The position numbers and the translations under genes are program-made. DNA of 64,000 nucleotides, taken from positions 1-64,000 of the forward strand of contig JAFDZF010000023.1 in assembly GCA_018267055.1 (NCBI GenBank). Reading direction: 5' to 3'. Shown here in pieces: positions 37,937 through 46,167 of the stretch. The number at the start of each line of letters is the position of its first letter. The first letter of the stretch is position 1. This stretch comes from Bacteroidota bacterium. Lineage in GTDB: Bacteria > Bacteroidota > Bacteroidia > Flavobacteriales_F > PHOS-HE28. The notes under the pieces were generated by a model. The model had not been told where the DNA came from. It saw only the letters and a list, made by a program, of their open reading frames with translations, and did no database searches.

Positions 37937-38479
37937 ATGAGCGAATGGACACCGCCCGTACGACCGCCTGAGCCACCCTCTCCACTCAGCGATCCCCCGG
38001 AGATCCTTCGGCTGGTCGGCTTCGCGCTGCTGATCATCGGCTTCCTCTTCAAGCTGCTGCACTGGCCCTGGGTGCCCTACTTCCTGGCCGTCGCCTGGCT
38101 GGTCACCCTGGCCGCCATGGTCTGGCGCTTCGCCCAGCGCAAGGCCATCGTGCCGAAGGCCATCGCCCGCGACCTCTTCACCCTCGCGCTCGTCTCCCTG
38201 CTCGTCATGCACCTGCTCCATCTGCCGGGCCGGGGGATCCCGATGGTCCTCCTGATCATCGGCCTGATCGGTTCGGTCCGGCTCGACCGCGACCGCTACA
38301 TGCCGCGGAGCGGGGAACAGGGCGCGCGCGGGACCTGGCTGTTCTATGCGGGCCTCGTGCTGGTCGTCATCGGGACCTTGTTCCGGATCCAGCATTGGCC
38401 CTATGGTACCATCCTGCTGATCGCCGGCCTGGTGCTGGGGGCCGCCGGATGGTTCTCCGCTCCACGCTCAAGGGATTGA
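37937..38479 (+). CDS. Membrane protein with triplicated GldL-like helix motif
   Basis: 180-residue inner-membrane protein with a Pro-rich cytoplasmic N-terminus (1-22) and about five hydrophobic segments. The motif of a hydrophobic run, then LF(K/R)-x2-HWP-x-G/V and another hydrophobic run occurs at about 30-60 (GFLFKLLHWPW), about 135-170 (GTLFRIQHWPYG) and, degenerate, about 83-115 (VMHLLHLPGRG). This is the pattern of the GldL N-terminal transmembrane domain of the gliding/T9SS motor, but the long cytoplasmic GldL part is missing. No motor genes are adjacent. Function unknown. Confidence 0.65.
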   Translation: MSEWTPPVRPPEPPSPLSDPPEILRLVGFALLIIGFLFKLLHWPWVPYFLAVAWLVTLAAMVWRFAQRKAIVPKAIARDLFTLALVSLLVMHLLHLPGRGIPMVLLIIGLIGSVRLDRDRYMPRSGEQGARGTWLFYAGLVLVVIGTLFRIQHWPYGTILLIAGLVLGAAGWFSAPRSRD

Positions 38480-38485
38480 ACGCCA

Positions 38486-38513
38486 GAGGCCCCGGATCTT
38501 CACCCGGGGCCTC
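38486..38513 (+). terminator. Strong hairpin after the GldL-like gene
   Basis: 10-bp perfect stem (GAGGCCCCGG / CCGGGGCCTC) with an 8-base loop, 6 bases after the stop codon. No T-run follows, so it may be a terminator of the non-U-tract kind or an mRNA 3'-end stabiliser. Confidence 0.5.
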
Positions 38514-38678
38514 GCACATTCCACCGAACCAAAACCGGAACTTTCCTGCGAAGGCTTGTTGACATACAAGGGCCATCGCACCACCAAATTACCCCGGGCG
38601 GCCTGGGACGACCGGTGAGGAACAGGGAGCGGACCCGGACAGGTCAGCAACGGCAGGAAAAGGCGGGAAGGAGAACGC

Positions 38679-38840
38679 TCAAGCGGCCGGGACGACCGTA
38701 TAGCGGACCTCGACCACCTCGATGGCGGTGGTGTCCACGACCACTACATGGGACAAGGCGCCTTCGGCGTCGGGCATGAAGGCCGTGACCACCAAGGTCA
38801 TCCCCTGGTAGGCCGGCATGGGGCTGGAACTGGAACGCAT
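38679..38840 (-). CDS. Tiny ORF (53 residues) coupled to the 38840 gene
   Basis: ATG at 38840 overlaps the upstream stop as TGATG, the coupling form seen elsewhere in this window. The product begins MRSSSSPMPAYQGMTLVVTA and is beta-rich and acidic in its middle (DTTAIEVVEVRYTVV), with codon use like real genes (G/C in most third positions). No signal peptide. It is too short to assign; the coupling and composition are the reasons to keep it. Confidence 0.4.
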   Translation of the reverse strand: MRSSSSPMPAYQGMTLVVTAFMPDAEGALSHVVVVDTTAIEVVEVRYTVVPAA

Positions 38841-39100
38841 CAGCCGGCCTTCTTCAGCTGGATGGGCCGAACGGTGGAGGTCTCGCCGTCCAGGACCATG
38901 AGGATCAGGTCGTCGCCATGGACGTCGGTCAGGCGCACCCGCGTAACGGGCCCTTTGATCTCGCCGGTCTTCAGGATGTGGCCCTGGGCATCGCAGATGT
39001 CGAAGAGGGCATCCTCCGAGCCGGGTTCATAATCGAACATGAGCAGCCGTTCGATCTGGTCGACACGGATGCGAAGTTCATGGGTCTGGTTGGGGCGCAT
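38840..39100 (-). CDS. Small protein of unknown function (86 residues)
   Basis: Product starts MRPNQTHELRIRVDQIERLL and looks folded and soluble: alternating strands (LMFDYEP, ALFDICDAQGHILKTGEIKG, TRVRLTDVHGDDLILMVLDG) end in a basic tail. The predicted all-beta pattern resembles a single Ig-like or T9SS-type beta module without a signal, but I cannot name it. An in-frame ATG at 39118 is a possible alternative start. No promoter was recognised. It is followed by a coupled 53-codon ORF. Confidence 0.5.
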   Translation of the reverse strand: MRPNQTHELRIRVDQIERLLMFDYEPGSEDALFDICDAQGHILKTGEIKGPVTRVRLTDVHGDDLILMVLDGETSTVRPIQLKKAG

Positions 39101-39410
39101 GACGGGGTCGTGGCCCATCGATACGCACCCGGCCGGACAAGGTTGCATGGACGCGGCAGGCCCCGGCCCACACGAGCCAGGACTTGGCCCGCAGGCGGCG
39201 GGGTCAGTTGCCTTGGTCGTTGAAGATCCAGAACGGAGCGGAGCCCGTGCTGAAGGTGTAGTGGCGTTCCATCGCGACAAGGGGTTGTTCGTGCAACGCC
39301 AAACTATCCGCCCACCATCCGTTGGGAAAGGGACGAACGAGCAACGGCGCCCCGGCCCCGATCAGCGGTCGGACGGCCCGGGCGGGCCACAGGCGTGTAC
39401 TTTCGCTCAC
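39101..39410. other. Intergenic region upstream of the LytTR regulator
   Basis: 310 bases between divergent genes. A 68-codon minus-strand ORF with a GTG start (39204-39410) is present; its C-terminal part (MERHYTFSTGSAPFWIFN) is protein-like, but its start lies within the divergent regulator's promoter and there is no other support, so I do not call it. Otherwise only the -7 element at 39398-39405 was seen. Confidence 0.4.
39398..39405 (+). promoter_or_regulatory. -7 element of the LytTR/histidine kinase cluster
   Basis: TACTTTCG (TAnnTTCG variant), only 5 bases before the ATG at 39411; a transcript from it would be practically leaderless. Confidence 0.45.
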
Positions 39411-40193
39411 ATGCCCGCACCCCGGTTACGCGCGCTGTTGGTCGATGACGAGGAGCTCGCGCGGGAGAACCTGCGGTTCATGCTGGAGGATGGCTGCCCC
39501 GAGGTGGAGGTGGTGGATACCGCCGACGGGCCGGAACGGGCCCGCCAGCGCATCGGCGCGCTGGACCCCGACCTGGTGTTCCTGGACATCCGCATGCCCA
39601 GCGGCACCGAGGGGCTCGACCTGCTGGAAGGCTTCCGCGATGCGCGCTTCATGGTGATCTTCGTCACCGCCTTCAAGGACCATGCGGTGCAGGCCTTCCA
39701 TGCCAACGCCGTGGACTACATCCTGAAGCCCATCGACCCGGACGAGCTGCGGGGGGCGGTGATGAAGGCGATGAAACGGTGGGCGCTGATGGCCGGCGCC
39801 CGCGACGAAGGCCGCCGTTACCGGGAAGGCCTGAACGAGGCGGTGCGGACCATCAAGGCGCACGAGGCCACCCCGCGCCTGGCGGTGGACCACGCCAAGG
39901 GCTTCAAGCTCTTCGACCCGCGGAGCATCATGCACCTGGCCGCCGACGGCAACCGCACCCGGCTGCACTTCACCGACGGCTCGGCCTACCTGGACGCGCG
40001 CACGCTGAAAGTGTACGAGGACATGCTGGACCCGCTCCAGTTCATCCGGGTGCACCGCTCGCACGTGGTGAACATCGAGCAGCTGAAGGAATACCTGCGG
40101 GACGACGGCCACTGGGCGGTGATGCGCGACGGCGCCCGCATCCCCATCGCGCGCGAGCGCCTGCAGCAGTTCCTCGACGCGGTCCGTCCCTGA
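39411..40193 (+). CDS. LytTR-family response regulator (first of two)
   Basis: 260-residue DNA-binding response regulator. Receiver domain 5-125: acidic pocket Asp12/Asp13, phospho-acceptor Asp59 in VFLDIRMP, conserved Thr in FVTAF and Lys in LKPID. A linker (about 128-155) leads to a LytTR DNA-binding domain (about 158-258) with GFKLFDPRSIMHLAADGN, FIRVHRSHVVNIEQLKEYL and IPIARERLQQFL. The start is ATG 39411, just after a -7 element. It is a clear paralogue of the next gene. In this regulator class the partner kinase is of LytS/His_kinase type, which is exactly what follows downstream. Confidence 0.93.
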   Translation: MPAPRLRALLVDDEELARENLRFMLEDGCPEVEVVDTADGPERARQRIGALDPDLVFLDIRMPSGTEGLDLLEGFRDARFMVIFVTAFKDHAVQAFHANAVDYILKPIDPDELRGAVMKAMKRWALMAGARDEGRRYREGLNEAVRTIKAHEATPRLAVDHAKGFKLFDPRSIMHLAADGNRTRLHFTDGSAYLDARTLKVYEDMLDPLQFIRVHRSHVVNIEQLKEYLRDDGHWAVMRDGARIPIARERLQQFLDAVRP

Positions 40194-40282
40194 CCCTGTT
40201 CCCGTTCGTTCGCCCGGGAACGCCGCCCGCTCGCTGGAACGCACCGTCCATGGGTCCGCGCGGATCACGTGGGACGTTCCGT

Positions 40283-40290
40283 TACTTTTC
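40283..40290 (+). promoter_or_regulatory. Candidate -7 element of the second LytTR regulator
   Basis: TACTTTTC, one mismatch to TAnnTTTG, 19 bases before the ATG at 40310; it would let this regulator be expressed separately from the first. Confidence 0.4.
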
Positions 40291-40309
40291 CATCCTACCC
40301 CTTGTCGCC

Positions 40310-41068
40310 ATGGCCTTACGAGCACTGATCGTCGATGACGAAGCGGATGCGCGGGACAACCTGCGCCTGATGTTGGAAGAGCACTGCCCCGAGGTGACGG
40401 TGGTGGCCCAGGCCGCCAGCGCCAAGGAAGCGCGCAAGCTCATCGAGGCCGAGCGGCCCGAAGCGCTCTTCCTGGACATCAAGATGCCGGGCGAGGACGG
40501 CTTCTCCCTGCTGCGCTCCATCGCCGACCAGGAGCTGCCGGTGGTGTTCACCACCGCCTACGACGAATACGCCCTCCAGGCCTTCAAGGAGAACGCCCTC
40601 GATTACCTGGAGAAGCCCATCGACCCCGAGGAGCTGAAGCGCGCGGTGCGGAAGCTCATGCGCACGGTGGCCGACCCGGCGGCCGCGCAACAGCACACCA
40701 GCGCCCTGGAGGCCCTGATGAACGACCCGGCCTCGCCGCTGAGCACCCGCGTGGCCGTGCCGAGCCGCGACGGGCTGGTGCTGCTGAAGCACGAGGACAT
40801 CCTCTATATGGAGGCCAGCGACAGCTACACCACGGTGTTCACGCGCGATGGCAAACGCACCATCAGCAGCAAGCACATCCGCGTGTTCGAGACCAACCTC
40901 GACCCGAAGAAGTTCTTCCGCGTGCACAAGTCCTACATCATCAATCTGGAGCACCTGAAAGGCTTCAGCCGCAGCGAAGGCAACATGGCGGTGCTCGACA
41001 CCGGCGCGCTGATCCCCGTGAGCCGGCGGCGCCTGCCGGACTTCCTGGCGATGATCAACACCTTCTGA
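40310..41068 (+). CDS. LytTR-family response regulator (second of two)
   Basis: 252-residue paralogue of the preceding regulator. Receiver: Asp9/Asp10, phospho-acceptor Asp56 in LFLDIKMP, Thr in VFTTAYDEYAL and Lys in LEKPIDPEE. The LytTR domain (about 150-250) shows DGLVLLKHEDILYMEASDSY, FFRVHKSYIINLEHLKGF and IPVSRRRLPDFL. It sits 116 bases after the first regulator and its stop directly abuts the kinase start, so it is the more likely cognate regulator of that kinase. The LytTR half is nearer to the common consensus than that of the first copy. Confidence 0.94.
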   Translation: MALRALIVDDEADARDNLRLMLEEHCPEVTVVAQAASAKEARKLIEAERPEALFLDIKMPGEDGFSLLRSIADQELPVVFTTAYDEYALQAFKENALDYLEKPIDPEELKRAVRKLMRTVADPAAAQQHTSALEALMNDPASPLSTRVAVPSRDGLVLLKHEDILYMEASDSYTTVFTRDGKRTISSKHIRVFETNLDPKKFFRVHKSYIINLEHLKGFSRSEGNMAVLDTGALIPVSRRRLPDFLAMINTF

Positions 41069-44000
41069 ATGGGGGGAACGGCAGGGACCGGAAGGAAGGC
41101 CTGGGGACCGATGCTCCGCTTCGGGGCATGGCTGGCCGCCCTCCTGCTCCTGTCCGCCGGAGGCCGGGCCCAGCAGTACGGCTTCACCCAGTTCACCCCG
41201 CGGGAAGGACTCGCTCAAAGCCAGGTGCGCTGCATGGCCCAGGATGCGCAGGGCTACCTCTGGTTCGGCACCCTGGGCGGCGCCAGCCGCTTCGATGGGA
41301 AGAACTTCACCAACTACGCCCTGCAGGAAGGCCTGCCCGATGCGCAGGTGAACGCGATGCTGGCCGGGCGCGACGGCACGTTCTGGATGGCCTGCGGCAC
41401 CGCATTGGTGGCGTTCGACGGGCGGCGGATGCGGCACGTGCCCCTGCCCGGGCGGGGCAAGGACCAGCGGATCGTGGCCCTGAGCGAGGACGACCGGGGC
41501 ACCGTGTTCATCGGGACCGAAGGCGCCGGCGTGTTCCGCTCGGTCGGCGGCCGCATCGAGCCCCTGCCCGGTTTTCCACTGGACTCCGCTTTGAGCCTGC
41601 GCACCCTGCTCGCCCTGCCGGACGGCGGGCTGCTGGTGGGCCTGCGCAACGGACTGCTCGAATGGCGCGACAACGCCTGCACCCCCGTGGCCGCGCTCAA
41701 GGGCATGTACGTCAGCGCCCTCACCATGGGCCGCGATGGCACCAAGTGGGTGGGGACGCTCGGCTACGGCCTGATCGGGCTGGGGCCCAACGGGGCGGTG
41801 CAGACCTATGAAGAGGCCAACGGCCTCCTGCAGGAGAACATCCGCACCCTGCTGGTGGACGCGCGGGGCCGGCTGTGGATCGGCACCAAGGTGGGCGTGA
41901 ACCTATTGGAGGGCGGGCGCCTGCGGGCGCTCACCGTGCACCAGGGCATGCCGAACGACAACGTCTGGTGCCTGCTGCAGGACAATGAGGGAAGCATCTG
42001 GATCGGCACCGACGGGGCGGGGGCCCTGCGCTATGCCGGCGACCGCTTCGTGACCTACACCACGGCCGACGGCCTGTGCAGCGAGCAGGTGATGTGCGCG
42101 GTGAGCGATGCCCGCGGCGACATCTGGCTGGGCACCTACGGCAGCGGCGTGTGCCGCATGGACGCCATGGCGATGATCTCCACCGCGGACGGCCTGCCGA
42201 ACAACACCGTGTGGTGCGGCCTGACCGACACGGACAGCTCGCTCTGGTTCGGCACCAGCGATGGGCTCTGCCGGATCGTCAAGGGGCACGTGATGCCGCT
42301 GGACAGTGCGCACCGGCTCACCGACATCCGCGTGCTGTCGCTGCTGCGCCCCAGCGACGGCCGGCTATGGTGCGGGACGCGCGAGGGCCTGTTCATCATC
42401 GCGAAGGACGGGACCGTGGAACGCATCACGCGCATCGGCCAGGTGACCGTGCGGGGGGTGCGCAACATCCGCGAGACCGCGGACGGGGCCATCTGGTTGG
42501 CCGACGACCTGGGCGTGGTGCGGATGCAAGGCGGCCAGGCCCAGCGCTACACCACCGCCGACGGGCTCTGCGACAACACCGTGTTCTGCCTGCGGGAGGA
42601 CACCAAGGGCCGGCTGTGGATCGGCACCTCGAACGGCCTCTCCCACTACGACCGGGGGCGGTTCACCACGGCCCGCCTCGGGCAGGACTTCGGATCCAAC
42701 TACGTGTGCCTGCTGTTGAACGATGCGCAGGGCACCCTGTGGGCGGGCACCAACAACGGGCTTTTCCACTTCGACCCGGACAGCCTGCTCGCCCAGGGCA
42801 CCGTCATCGACCACATCACCCTGGACGATGGCCTGCGCGGGACCGAATGCAACCTCAACTCCGGCTTCGCCGACCGGCGCGGCCGCCTCTTTTTCGGCAC
42901 CAACGCGGGGTTCGTGATGCACGACCCGGCCCGCACGCCCCAGGCGCGGGAGATACCCCCCGTCACCTACATCACCGGGCTGCGGAGCTTCCTGCAGCCT
43001 TCCGACTGGAAGGGGCTCAGCGACAGCCTGGACCGCGTGACCGGCCTGCCCGTGGGCCTGCACGTGGTGTACCGGAAGAACCACCTGACCTTCGACTACA
43101 CGGCCGTGGCCCTGGCCGATGGGGACCGGGTACGCTTCCGGTACCGCCTGATCGGCTTCGATCCCGACTGGCTGCCGGCCACCGAGGCCCGGTTCGCCAG
43201 CTACTCCAACCTGCCCCAAGGCGACTACACCTTCGAGGTGTGCGCCTCGGACCAGGCCGGCGCCTGGGGGCCCACCGCGCGGTTCGGCTTCCGGATCACC
43301 CCGCCGTTCTGGCTGCGCTGGTGGTTCTTCCTGGGCTGTACGGTGCTCCTGGCGGGCCTGGCCTATGGGGTGATGCGGTACCGGCACATCCGGCGCCTGC
43401 GCCGCGAGAAGACGCGCCAGCTGATGCTGCGCTCGCGCATGCTCCAGCTGGAGCAGCAGGCGCTGAACGCCAACATGAACCGCCACTTCATCTTCAATGC
43501 GCTGAACAGCATCCAGTACTACATCAACCGCCAGGACCGGAGCGCGGCCAACAAGTACCTCACCAGCTTCGCCAAGCTCATCCGCAAGAACCTGGACGCC
43601 AGCCAGACCGACACCACCAGCCTGGCCGAGGAGCTGTCGCGCCTGGACCTTTACCTGCTGCTGGAGCACATGCGTTTCAAGGACAAGTTCCGGTACGGCA
43701 TCACCGTGGACGCCAGCATCGATACCACGGCCATCGAAATCCCTGCGATGATGCTGCAGCCCTATGTGGAGAACAGCATCTGGCACGGCATCCTGCCCAT
43801 GGACCATCCCGGGTCGGTCACCATCACCGTGGAGCGGGGCGAAGAGGGCCGCGCCCGCGTGAGCATCGTGGACGACGGCATCGGGATCGAGCGCAGCCAG
43901 GCCCTGAAGAACGGGGCCGAGGGCGACCACATCTCCCGGGGCATCGAGATCACCAAGGGCCGGGCGGACGTGCTGCGCAAGCTGGACCTCACGGATATCC

Positions 44001-44146
44001 GCATCACCGGCCCGGAGCAGCTCGGGGACGCCCAAGCCCCCCGGGGGACCCGGGTCGTCATCGATCTCCCTTCCAAGAACGGTCAGGGAAAAGGGCACCT
44101 GGATTTGCGGATCGGGGAAGAACGACTTACATTTGATAGCCCATGA
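41069..44146 (+). CDS. Two-component propeller sensor histidine kinase (LytS/His_kinase type)
   Basis: 1025-residue membrane sensor. Signal or anchor in residues 15-36 (an ATG at 41111 would start directly there). Periplasmic part: about 13 propeller blades of the type LW(I/F)GTxxGL between residues 30 and 640, fitting two seven-bladed Reg_prop propellers, then a Y_Y_Y domain (about 690-740). A transmembrane helix lies at about 749-770. Cytoplasmic part: His_kinase domain with phospho-acceptor His806 in NANMNRHFIFNALNSIQYY, and an HATPase (MMLQPYVENSIWHG near 893, VDDGIGIERS near 934). It probably senses a carbohydrate-related or envelope signal and phosphorylates the LytTR regulator(s) upstream. 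Its end overlaps the next gene as ATGA. Confidence 0.95.
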   Translation: MGGTAGTGRKAWGPMLRFGAWLAALLLLSAGGRAQQYGFTQFTPREGLAQSQVRCMAQDAQGYLWFGTLGGASRFDGKNFTNYALQEGLPDAQVNAMLAGRDGTFWMACGTALVAFDGRRMRHVPLPGRGKDQRIVALSEDDRGTVFIGTEGAGVFRSVGGRIEPLPGFPLDSALSLRTLLALPDGGLLVGLRNGLLEWRDNACTPVAALKGMYVSALTMGRDGTKWVGTLGYGLIGLGPNGAVQTYEEANGLLQENIRTLLVDARGRLWIGTKVGVNLLEGGRLRALTVHQGMPNDNVWCLLQDNEGSIWIGTDGAGALRYAGDRFVTYTTADGLCSEQVMCAVSDARGDIWLGTYGSGVCRMDAMAMISTADGLPNNTVWCGLTDTDSSLWFGTSDGLCRIVKGHVMPLDSAHRLTDIRVLSLLRPSDGRLWCGTREGLFIIAKDGTVERITRIGQVTVRGVRNIRETADGAIWLADDLGVVRMQGGQAQRYTTADGLCDNTVFCLREDTKGRLWIGTSNGLSHYDRGRFTTARLGQDFGSNYVCLLLNDAQGTLWAGTNNGLFHFDPDSLLAQGTVIDHITLDDGLRGTECNLNSGFADRRGRLFFGTNAGFVMHDPARTPQAREIPPVTYITGLRSFLQPSDWKGLSDSLDRVTGLPVGLHVVYRKNHLTFDYTAVALADGDRVRFRYRLIGFDPDWLPATEARFASYSNLPQGDYTFEVCASDQAGAWGPTARFGFRITPPFWLRWWFFLGCTVLLAGLAYGVMRYRHIRRLRREKTRQLMLRSRMLQLEQQALNANMNRHFIFNALNSIQYYINRQDRSAANKYLTSFAKLIRKNLDASQTDTTSLAEELSRLDLYLLLEHMRFKDKFRYGITVDASIDTTAIEIPAMMLQPYVENSIWHGILPMDHPGSVTITVERGEEGRARVSIVDDGIGIERSQALKNGAEGDHISRGIEITKGRADVLRKLDLTDIRITGPEQLGDAQAPRGTRVVIDLPSKNGQGKGHLDLRIGEERLTFDSP
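44128..44135 (+). promoter_or_regulatory. -7 element inside the kinase 3' end, for the tiny lipoprotein gene
   Basis: TACATTTG, exact TAnnTTTG match, 7 bases before the ATG at 44143. It could drive the lipoprotein gene independently of the kinase, with almost no leader. Confidence 0.5.
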
Positions 44147-44403
44147 GGACCGCCCGTCCATCCGCCTTCTGGAAAAGCGCCGCGTTCTGCGCCCTTTTCG
44201 CCCTGCTCGCCACGGGCTGTGCGAAAGAGGAGCTGGTGGCGCCCGTAGGCCCTGATAGCGGTGCGCAGGTGAAATCCGGCGGCGGCAGCTGCGGGGACAC
44301 CGGCACCGGTACGGTGGGCAATTCCGGTCCCAAGGCCACCGGCATCTCCGATGACGGGAACGACCAGGGCGACAACGAGAAGAGCCGCAAGAAGCCGCGC
44401 TGA
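44143..44403 (+). CDS. Tiny lipoprotein coupled to the histidine kinase
   Basis: 86-residue lipoprotein: basic start, hydrophobic core FWKSAAFCALFALLATGC with lipobox LATGC (Cys27). The mature 60 residues are low-complexity and hydrophilic: GGGSCGDTGTGTVGNSG followed by ISDDGNDQGDNE and a basic tail SRKKPR. No family is recognised. Expression is tied to the kinase by an ATGA overlap, with a possible private promoter as well, and a strong terminator follows. It could be a small accessory or ligand-type partner of the sensor, or simply a surface peptide; this is inference from position only. Confidence 0.7.
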   Translation: MRTARPSAFWKSAAFCALFALLATGCAKEELVAPVGPDSGAQVKSGGGSCGDTGTGTVGNSGPKATGISDDGNDQGDNEKSRKKPR

Positions 44404-44427
44404 GCCGCTTCGGTGACGAACGGATGG

Positions 44428-44452
44428 GCCCGGTACCGACCGGGCTTTTTTC
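44428..44452 (+). terminator. Intrinsic terminator closing the two-component cluster
   Basis: GCCCGG-TACCGA-CCGGGC stem-loop (6-bp stem) followed by seven T residues, 24 bases after the lipoprotein stop. The clearest rho-independent terminator in the window. Confidence 0.9.
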
Positions 44453-44577
44453 TTGCCGTTCCCGTTCCTCCATCCTGCATCGCCGTTCCCCGTACCGCGG
44501 GGAGCCCGCCGGACGCTTCGGTCTAGCTTTCAATATCACCGGGACGGGCCGGACCGTTCCGCAATGCACGACCGACG

Positions 44578-46167
44578 ATGGCCAACAGTCCGCAGGACCA
44601 TGTGCACCGCCTCATCCGCTCGATGACGCGGCCCGAGAAGCGCTATTTCAAGGTCTACACCTCGCGCCATCTTCTCGGCGGCCAGAGCAACCACCACCGG
44701 CTGTTCGATGCGATCGCCGCGATGGACGTGTACGACGAGGAGCTGCTGCACCGGAAGTTCACCGGGCAGGCCTTCATGCACCGCTTCTCCATCACCAAGC
44801 GGCGGCTGTACGAGGCCATCCTGCAGAGCCTCGACGCCTTCCACGCGGAGAGCTCGGTGGACGCCCGGCTGCGCCGGTCGCTGCACCAGGTGGAGCTGCT
44901 GTACGAGCGCGCGCTCTACGCCGACGCGGAGAAGATGCTGCGCAGCGTGCGGGCGCTGGCGCGTGAGCACGACAAGCAGGCCGCCCTGCTCGAAGTGGCG
45001 GAGTGGCAGCGCAAGGTGATGGAGCGGAGCAACTATTCGGGCGTGGGGATGGCCGAGCTGGAGGAGCTGGCCCGCAGCACCGCGGAGGTCCAGGCCGAGT
45101 GGAACGAGACCGATGCCCTCTGGCACCTGAAGAGCCGGTGCTTCCTGCTGCTGTACCGCAACGGGCAGGTGCGCGACGACGCCGCGCTGGAGGAAGTGAA
45201 GGCCCTGCTGGGCCACCCCTTGCTGGCCGAGGGGGCCGTGCTGCGCACGGCCAAGGCGCGGTTCCTCCACCACCACGTGCGATCGGCGCTGGCCTTCGCC
45301 CTGAACGACCTGCCGGAGTGCGAACGCCACCTGGCGGAGAGCGCGGCCCTGCTCGAGCAGGAGCAGGCGCACTTCAAGGACGAGCCCAACCTGCTGCTCG
45401 GCGTGATGAGCAACCAGGTGACGGTGCGCATGCGGCTGGGCCGCTACACCGAGGCGATGGAGGGGCTGCGGGAGTTCCGCCGGCTGCCGCTGATGATGCC
45501 GGAGGCCCCCTCGCCGGACCTGGGGATGAAGCTTTTCATCATGGGCTCGAGCCTGGAGCTGATGGTGCTCTGCCGCATGGGCGACTTCGGCAAGGCCCTG
45601 GAGAAGCTGCCCGCGCTGGAGGAGGGCATGGCCCTGTACGGCGAGCGCCTGAGCGTGATCCGGCGTGCCGGGCTCTGGTTCCAGGCGGCCTACGCCTGCT
45701 TCGGCGCGGGGCAGGCCGACAAGGCGCTGCGCTGGTGCCACCGGCTGCTGAACGAGAACGGCATCGATGAGCACGCCGAGGTGCACGCGATGGGCCGCAT
45801 GCTGAACCTGATGGTGCTGGTGGAGCTGAACAAGCGCGACCTGCTGCCCTATGCGCTGCGCAATACCGAGCGCTTCCTGCGCTCGCGCGACCGCACGTTC
45901 CGCTTCGAGAGCGCCCTGCTGGCCTATGTGCACGAGCACCTGCGCGCCCTGCGCCCCGCGGAACAGGGCCAGGCGCGGGCGCGGCTGCGCGATGAGCTGG
46001 AGCTGCTGTCCAAGGACCCGTTCGAGGCCACGGTGTTCGACCATTTCGACCCGCTGGCGTGGGCCGAGGGCAAGGTGAGCGGGCTGCCGTTCGCGAAGGT
46101 GGTGCGGGCCCGGGCGGCCGAGGCGGCCGCGCGCACCAAGGGGTCCAAGGCCCAGCGGGCGGCCTGA
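44578..46167 (+). CDS. Unknown cytoplasmic helical-repeat (TPR-like) protein
   Basis: 529 residues, no signal or membrane segment. The N-terminal 90 residues (RLIRSMTRPEKRYFKVYTS, then FSITKRRLYEAILQSLDAFH) are reminiscent of a DNA- or RNA-binding helical domain. The rest is a series of helix pairs with TPR-like spacing (LYERALYADAEKMLRSVRAL, LNDLPECERHLAES, GRYTEAMEGLREFR, RLLNENGIDEHAEV). The family seems restricted to Bacteroidota in my recollection, but I cannot name it. It stands between the terminator at 44428-44452 and the nuo promoter, so it is probably monocistronic. Confidence 0.65.
   Translation: MANSPQDHVHRLIRSMTRPEKRYFKVYTSRHLLGGQSNHHRLFDAIAAMDVYDEELLHRKFTGQAFMHRFSITKRRLYEAILQSLDAFHAESSVDARLRRSLHQVELLYERALYADAEKMLRSVRALAREHDKQAALLEVAEWQRKVMERSNYSGVGMAELEELARSTAEVQAEWNETDALWHLKSRCFLLLYRNGQVRDDAALEEVKALLGHPLLAEGAVLRTAKARFLHHHVRSALAFALNDLPECERHLAESAALLEQEQAHFKDEPNLLLGVMSNQVTVRMRLGRYTEAMEGLREFRRLPLMMPEAPSPDLGMKLFIMGSSLELMVLCRMGDFGKALEKLPALEEGMALYGERLSVIRRAGLWFQAAYACFGAGQADKALRWCHRLLNENGIDEHAEVHAMGRMLNLMVLVELNKRDLLPYALRNTERFLRSRDRTFRFESALLAYVHEHLRALRPAEQGQARARLRDELELLSKDPFEATVFDHFDPLAWAEGKVSGLPFAKVVRARAAEAAARTKGSKAQRAA

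Follow-up and report, generated by a model that had tools for sequence, protein, structure and literature searches.

A small lipoprotein gene paired with a propeller histidine kinase gene in a LytTR two-component cassette of Bacteroidota

The window analyzed here, a 64,000-nucleotide stretch of a Bacteroidota contig, contains a cassette of four plus-strand genes in the order RR1-RR2-HK-LP. These genes encode two LytTR response regulators (RR1 and RR2), a propeller histidine kinase (HK), and a small lipoprotein (LP). The initial annotation had proposed this cassette, and its open reading frames and Pfam domains confirmed it as real. The features are as follows (promoter consensus elements as reported in PMC7366714 for the -33 element and in PMC9723704 and PMC7366714 for the -7 box).

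39411-40193, plus strand: RR1, LytTR response regulator of 260 aa (Response_reg and LytTR domains)
40310-41068, plus strand: RR2, LytTR response regulator of 252 aa (Response_reg and LytTR domains)
41069-44146, plus strand: HK, LytS-type sensor histidine kinase (Reg_prop, Y_Y_Y, and His_kinase domains; alternative start ATG at 41111)
44104-44107, plus strand: -33 promoter element TTTG of LP, within the HK gene
44128-44135, plus strand: -7 promoter box TACATTTG of LP, within the HK gene
44143-44403, plus strand: LP, 86 aa (signal peptide, 44143-44217; lipid Cys26 at 44218, followed by C-A-K-E-E counted from the cysteine)
44344-44400, plus strand: conserved acidic/basic C-terminal motif ISDDGNDQGDNEKSRKKPR of LP
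44426-44451, plus strand: intrinsic terminator

The terminator, a 9-pair hairpin followed by a T run, closes the cassette as had been proposed, and the HK TGA (44144-44146) does overlap the LP ATG in the window. No known RNA element reached the gathering score within 38000-45500. Three neighboring genes were recorded: a plus-strand gene for a 180-aa protein matching the GldL N-terminal domain (37937-38479; PF22827); a minus-strand gene just upstream of the regulators for an 85-aa protein (38840-39097), which is conserved at 60 to 83% identity within the genus and matched no family in a Pfam search; and a plus-strand gene after LP for a 529-aa protein (44578-46167) with a weak match to NCBIfam NF058569 (154 bits versus a cut-off of 550).

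HK matched the His_kinase catalytic domain (PF06580; 65.4 bits versus a cut-off of 25.2) and scored 22.5 for HATPase_c, under the cut-off of 26.4; the LytTR domains beside it scored 57.2 bits in RR1 and 71.2 bits in RR2 (cut-off, 22.6). A multitransmembrane sensor is typical of LytS-type kinases. Pfam matched no such sensor family in HK, the sensor of which consists of Reg_prop and Y_Y_Y domains. By eye, the protein has a signal peptide and one transmembrane segment, a layout that places the sensor in the periplasm. This sensor matches solved sensor-kinase chains, the best being 4a2l (E value, 2.8e-56), which we take to be the periplasmic sensor of a hybrid two-component system from Bacteroides. 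The propeller also weakly matches the PorZ model NF052228 (68.6 bits versus a cut-off of 260), which probably reflects a shared propeller and not a PorZ protein.

The two regulators had been read as a tandem duplication. A recent duplication was rejected, since they are 42% identical and fall into two clades, each extending into other families. In the regulator tree, the partners of RR1 in other families are the outer or sole upstream regulators (SH-aLRT, 100), and those of RR2 are the inner ones (SH-aLRT, 94). Because each groups with separate regulators of other families, the pair is older than the genus and, judged from their sequences, RR1 and RR2 are old paralogues. RR2 occurs in each of the 39 genus loci whose contig shows its position, and RR1 was seen in 13 genus loci. 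Three loci (L180, L182, and L184; L and G numbers denote loci and genomes, respectively) have a second LytTR regulator directly after LP, giving the order RR, HK, LP, RR, and this downstream regulator clusters with the downstream regulators of distant HKs.

The window LP has a signal peptide and a lipobox (LLATGC) with its cysteine. The lipid cysteine is invariant in alignments of 30 genus LPs (30/30 rows) and of a mixed set (21/21 rows), and lipidation is predicted. Across the 30 aligned genus sequences, a K at +3 and a proline are also seen, the linker varies in both length and sequence, and the C terminus reads I-x-DDG-x-D-x-x-D-x-E with a mostly basic end. The body of the protein had been described as of low complexity; that description does not hold for the C-terminal SDDGxD stretch, which is conserved across the genus rather than merely of low complexity. 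The tail motif varies by family (ISDDGDD, ITDPNxDxD, GGDDNEDDDD, or pure D/E runs) and is repeated in some LPs (L182, L272, and L329), including the Asp-rich tails ITDKDGDDGDGDGD (L182) and VDPDDDEDFDEDE (L272). These sequences point to a common build in which a lipid anchor is followed by a variable linker that looks disordered and then by a short acidic motif at the C terminus. Pfam and NCBIfam searches assigned the window LP to no family, and other LPs gave nothing more than weak matches below curated NCBIfam cut-offs or scattered Pfam matches. Two close pairs were informative for dN/dS, with values of approximately 0.29 (L101/L104) and 0.11 (L079/L088); of the remaining pairs, one was near-identical and three were saturated.

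Surface lipoproteins of Capnocytophaga are reported to carry the export signal C-X-K-(D/E)2-X (PMC5080379). The window LP begins C-A-K-E-E-L, with K at +3 and then two acidic residues, and this fit suggests a location at the cell surface; the strict form, C-x-K-(D/E)2, was found in 26/30 genus, 17/67 f19, and 6/18 near class LPs and is thus in the minority outside the genus (f5, f19, and f33 are families of the class outside the window's genus). Since the strict signal is patchy and a C-x-K-E start also occurs in unrelated lipoproteins, the N terminus is best regarded as an address tag that is not specific to LP.

The initial annotation had described HK and LP as coupled. The LP start ranges from -4 to +82 nt relative to the HK stop, and LP has its own conserved promoter, which in the genus takes the form TTG-N20-TANNTTTG at the 3' end of the HK gene, with a near-leaderless start. 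Translational coupling was rejected on two grounds, the lack of a conserved overlap and the presence of a promoter ahead of LP. Of the 45 genus loci, 44 have an exact TANNTTTG box between -120 and +130 nt relative to the HK stop; from HK coding sequence, 0.0025 boxes per 250 nt would be expected. The TTG stands exactly 20 nt upstream of the box in 42 of 43 distinct genus sequences, the first ATG stands 6 to 7 nt past it in 28 of these 43, and the chosen start codons of all 30 genus LPs fall 4 to 23 nt past it. The combination of TANNTTTG with TTTG at -33 is reported as the primary promoter of these bacteria, in which leaderless mRNAs are rare (about 3.7% and 5.5%) (PMC7366714, PMC9723704). As the window box lies within the HK gene, part of the coding sequence for the HK tail LTFDSP doubles as promoter. 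Within -120 to +160 nt, the box was found in 64/69 f19 loci and 12/20 near class loci; the comparison sets gave 9/38 for distant HKs and 0/6 for paralogues.

An LP search of 98 genomes, the window's included, found the protein in 32, all of the window's genus. With HK as the query, an orthologue was identified in 45 of 45 genus genomes, each with LP directly behind it; 44 of these LPs were counted by motif, and that of G027 was found by profile and then read in L244. An HK search of 395 genomes of the class gave 87 with a match at 1e-48, and we fetched 60 non-genus loci, comprising 21 with the closest HKs (near class; 20 evaluable) and 39 with more distant HKs (38 evaluable). An automated rule placed a small lipoprotein behind 44 of the 45 genus HKs, none of the 38 distant class HKs, many of which have a LytTR regulator directly downstream instead, and none of 6 genus paralogues, these being the HKs fetched of 12 listed at 1e-40. 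L089 in the genus, where the rule failed on the lipobox, and L185 in the class were counted as LP bearing by eye. Eighteen of the 20 closest non-genus HKs carry a small lipoprotein (17 by the rule and L185), and the two that do not (L186 and L187) both belong to f33. HKs of eight loci near the LP-bearing clade (L205, L206, L208-L211, L213, and L215) have a regulator upstream and no lipoprotein behind.

Across the class, a small lipoprotein lies behind the HK orthologue in 134 of 150 evaluable loci (genus, 45/45; near class, 18/20; f19, 67/69; f5, 3/3; further f33 loci, 1/13) and behind none of 44 other propeller HKs. Of the 16 misses, 14 fall in family f33; outside it, LP is adjacent in 133 of 135 loci. 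Three loci at contig ends (L190, L202, and L263) were left out as not evaluable, and L355, a repeat of G398, was not counted twice. We take the window cassette to be one instance of an envelope two-component module that is widespread in the class. At an E value of 1e-58, a phylum sample of 395 genomes gave HK matches in same-class genomes only and none outside the class. In an HK tree of 80 rows built by a quick method, the distribution of LP needs two changes, a number as low as which was reached in 0 of 500 shuffles, and the LP carriers fall inside a clade with an SH-aLRT of 94. The initial annotation had held that the pairing would fall if LP occurred mostly in unrelated contexts or if relatives of HK never carried it; this test was run and did not refute the pairing.

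When an LP profile was run over the 395 class genomes, long matches came from G326, G104, and G260, in each of which LP lies behind a related HK and the next gene is different. Weak profile matches elsewhere (L238, L239, L242, L243, and L245) were set aside as unrelated lipoproteins whose resemblance lay in the lipobox region or in an acidic body of low complexity, and L240 most likely duplicates, at a contig end, the LP of G036. The 529-aa next gene, considered as a constant third member in the class, was rejected because a homologue occurs in only some loci (36/45 genus, 36/70 f19, 1/21 near class, and 0/13 f33 loci; some contigs are short).

Family f19 carries HK at 1e-55 in 83 of 120 genomes. 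We read 74 of these 83 loci (70 new, of which 69 were evaluable, and 4 earlier), and the 9 genomes not fetched were counted in the profile test only. Tails of the ITDPNxDxD kind are carried by many of the f19 LPs. Run over the same 120 genomes, a profile built from 37 f19 LPs gave a small-ORF match in 81 of the 83 HK-bearing genomes and in none of the 37 without HK, a co-occurrence for which Fisher p-values overstate the certainty because related genomes are not independent samples. Six genomes without HK (G759, G777, G793, G805, G816, and G833) had partial matches in larger ORFs only, which were dropped before the count. The two HK-bearing genomes missed by the profile were G229, in which LP was read directly at the locus, and G775, which is 59% complete. 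In G792, LP is unlinked from HK and still retained, flanked by what are presumably oxygenase-like and uvrC-like genes.

Loci of f5 and f33 were assessed by eye. All three additional f5 loci carry LP, with a tail like KEVSDGDEESDDDE. HK occurs in 15 of 46 f33 genomes, and LP is adjacent to it only in G874. Ten f33 genomes have a similar lipoprotein, its tail resembling IIGGDDNEDDDD, at another position, namely, 9 with HK and G885 (72% complete), in which HK was not detected; all 10 of these unlinked genes have an ATG 6 nt past TANNTTTG. Profile searches and locus reading found no LP in the remaining five HK-bearing genomes (G883, G884, G311, G898, and G899).

The sensors were compared along the same division. 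Of the 27 sequences in the LP-bearing clade, counting L186 and L187, 26 have W382 and one has Y there, versus W382 in 2 of 36 other sequences. At like kinase identity below 0.55, the propellers of LP-bearing HKs are modestly more alike than those of other HKs; at 0.55 to 0.65, they are not more alike. This comparison lends weak support to LP as an accessory of HK, short of demonstrating contact.

The adjacency could in principle reflect an independent small lipoprotein gene that sits behind HK through conserved gene order, and within the genus the gene order around the locus is indeed conserved. We consider this very unlikely, as HK and LP remain together while the next gene changes, and are jointly absent in f19, and as LP is kept when unlinked (G792 and nine HK-bearing f33 genomes). 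Pairing, joint absence, and retention therefore argue for a functional bond between the two. A bond of another kind, which retains a real but clearly smaller share of our confidence than the reading preferred below, would make LP an output of the system: the LytTR regulator would switch a surface lipoprotein whose acidic tail alters surface charge or binds cations, and the LP gene would remain beside its regulator. LP has its own promoter, and LytS/LytTR systems are described as controlling membrane-protein genes such as btsT (PMC10653868). However, no shared operator was seen by eye upstream of the LP promoter in the genus, where the conserved columns fit HK codons (a V-x-I-x-L-P stretch), and f19 genomes without HK also lack LP, a rule that an output gene need not obey.

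LP might instead be the precursor of a secreted signal peptide, with its tail cleaved and then perceived by the propeller HK in the manner of peptide quorum sensing, which LytTR regulators are known to serve. The conserved ends and variable linker of LP would suit a precursor, and a review of two-component quorum sensing often uses the word LytTR (PMC8895600). No protease or exporter gene is constant beside HK-LP within the loci as read, though, and the tail motif is conserved within families, not strain variable. HK is moreover of the LytS type (PF06580), which we take not to be AgrC-like; overall, the proposal seems improbable. We regard as equally improbable a role as a Ca2+/Mg2+-binding coreceptor that reports divalent cations at the surface to HK, for which Asp-rich tails in many families, with repeats in L182 and L272, can be cited and against which stand tails that are short and end in Lys/Arg (RKKPR and KKKK). 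Slightly less unlikely than these two, and still unlikely, is that LP serves as a sacrificial reporter in envelope surveillance throughout the class, a short, disordered, surface-tagged lipoprotein made from a constitutive near-leaderless mRNA. Working lipoprotein export would then remove it from the periplasm, and export failure would let its acidic tail dock on the propeller and fire the LytTR regulator.

The reading that we prefer, at a confidence just short of even, is an envelope module of LytTR regulator(s), a propeller HK, and a dedicated accessory LP that would touch the sensor and set kinase output. The conserved pairing across several families suggests an undescribed envelope-sensing partner protein. 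From the periplasmic sensor of HK, the envelope location of LP, and its build of anchor, linker, and repeated acidic motif, we infer an accessory lipoprotein or tethered ligand. LP would be expressed from the primary-type promoter and, once lipidated, transferred to the outer membrane; its C-terminal peptide may then contact the propeller sensor directly or via a bound cation or envelope component, and its state or location would set the output of HK to the LytTR regulator. The repeated tail motif in L182, L272, and L329 is as would be expected of a functional unit; its variation from family to family leaves no obvious single binding site. Family f33 counts against an accessory lipoprotein, as 14 of its 15 HK-bearing genomes have no adjacent LP, 5 have none found, and G885 has LP with no detected HK. 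Should LP be the ligand or reporter, a large group of propeller kinases would gain a candidate signal, and outer-membrane monitoring in these bacteria could be approached directly by genetics. To our knowledge, the known accessory lipoproteins of sensor kinases (QseG and NlpE) come from Pseudomonadota, and a full-text literature search turned up no such lipoprotein described for the propeller kinases of this class.

By analogy with these systems, we infer that LP may act on HK as QseG does on QseE or NlpE on CpxA. QseG is described as an outer-membrane lipoprotein whose C-terminal part binds and activates the kinase QseE, and in that case the conserved qseEGF gene order went with a direct activator (PMC12691602). 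The QseG-QseE-QseF system of Pseudomonadota resembles the present one in having a lipoprotein gene constantly beside the sensor-kinase gene (PMC12691602). The likeness is drawn from published descriptions. QseG is reported to have an inner-leaflet anchor and a C-terminal domain (PMC12691602), whereas LP is short and disordered-looking, and its kinase has a propeller sensor and LytTR regulators. In the NlpE-CpxA system of Escherichia coli, too, a sensor kinase receives information about the envelope from one lipoprotein (PMC6538781); unlike NlpE, LP is tiny and adjoins its kinase gene in conserved order, and its reporter role is putative. The hybrid two-component systems of Bacteroides share the same propeller sensor by sequence (4a2l), but HK is a LytS-type kinase with separate LytTR regulators and a lipoprotein partner behind it. 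Finally, LytS/LytTR systems such as BtsS/BtsR likewise combine a His_kinase domain (PF06580) with a LytTR regulator; BtsS is described as a 7-transmembrane receptor (PMC10653868), whose place in HK is taken by a periplasmic propeller.
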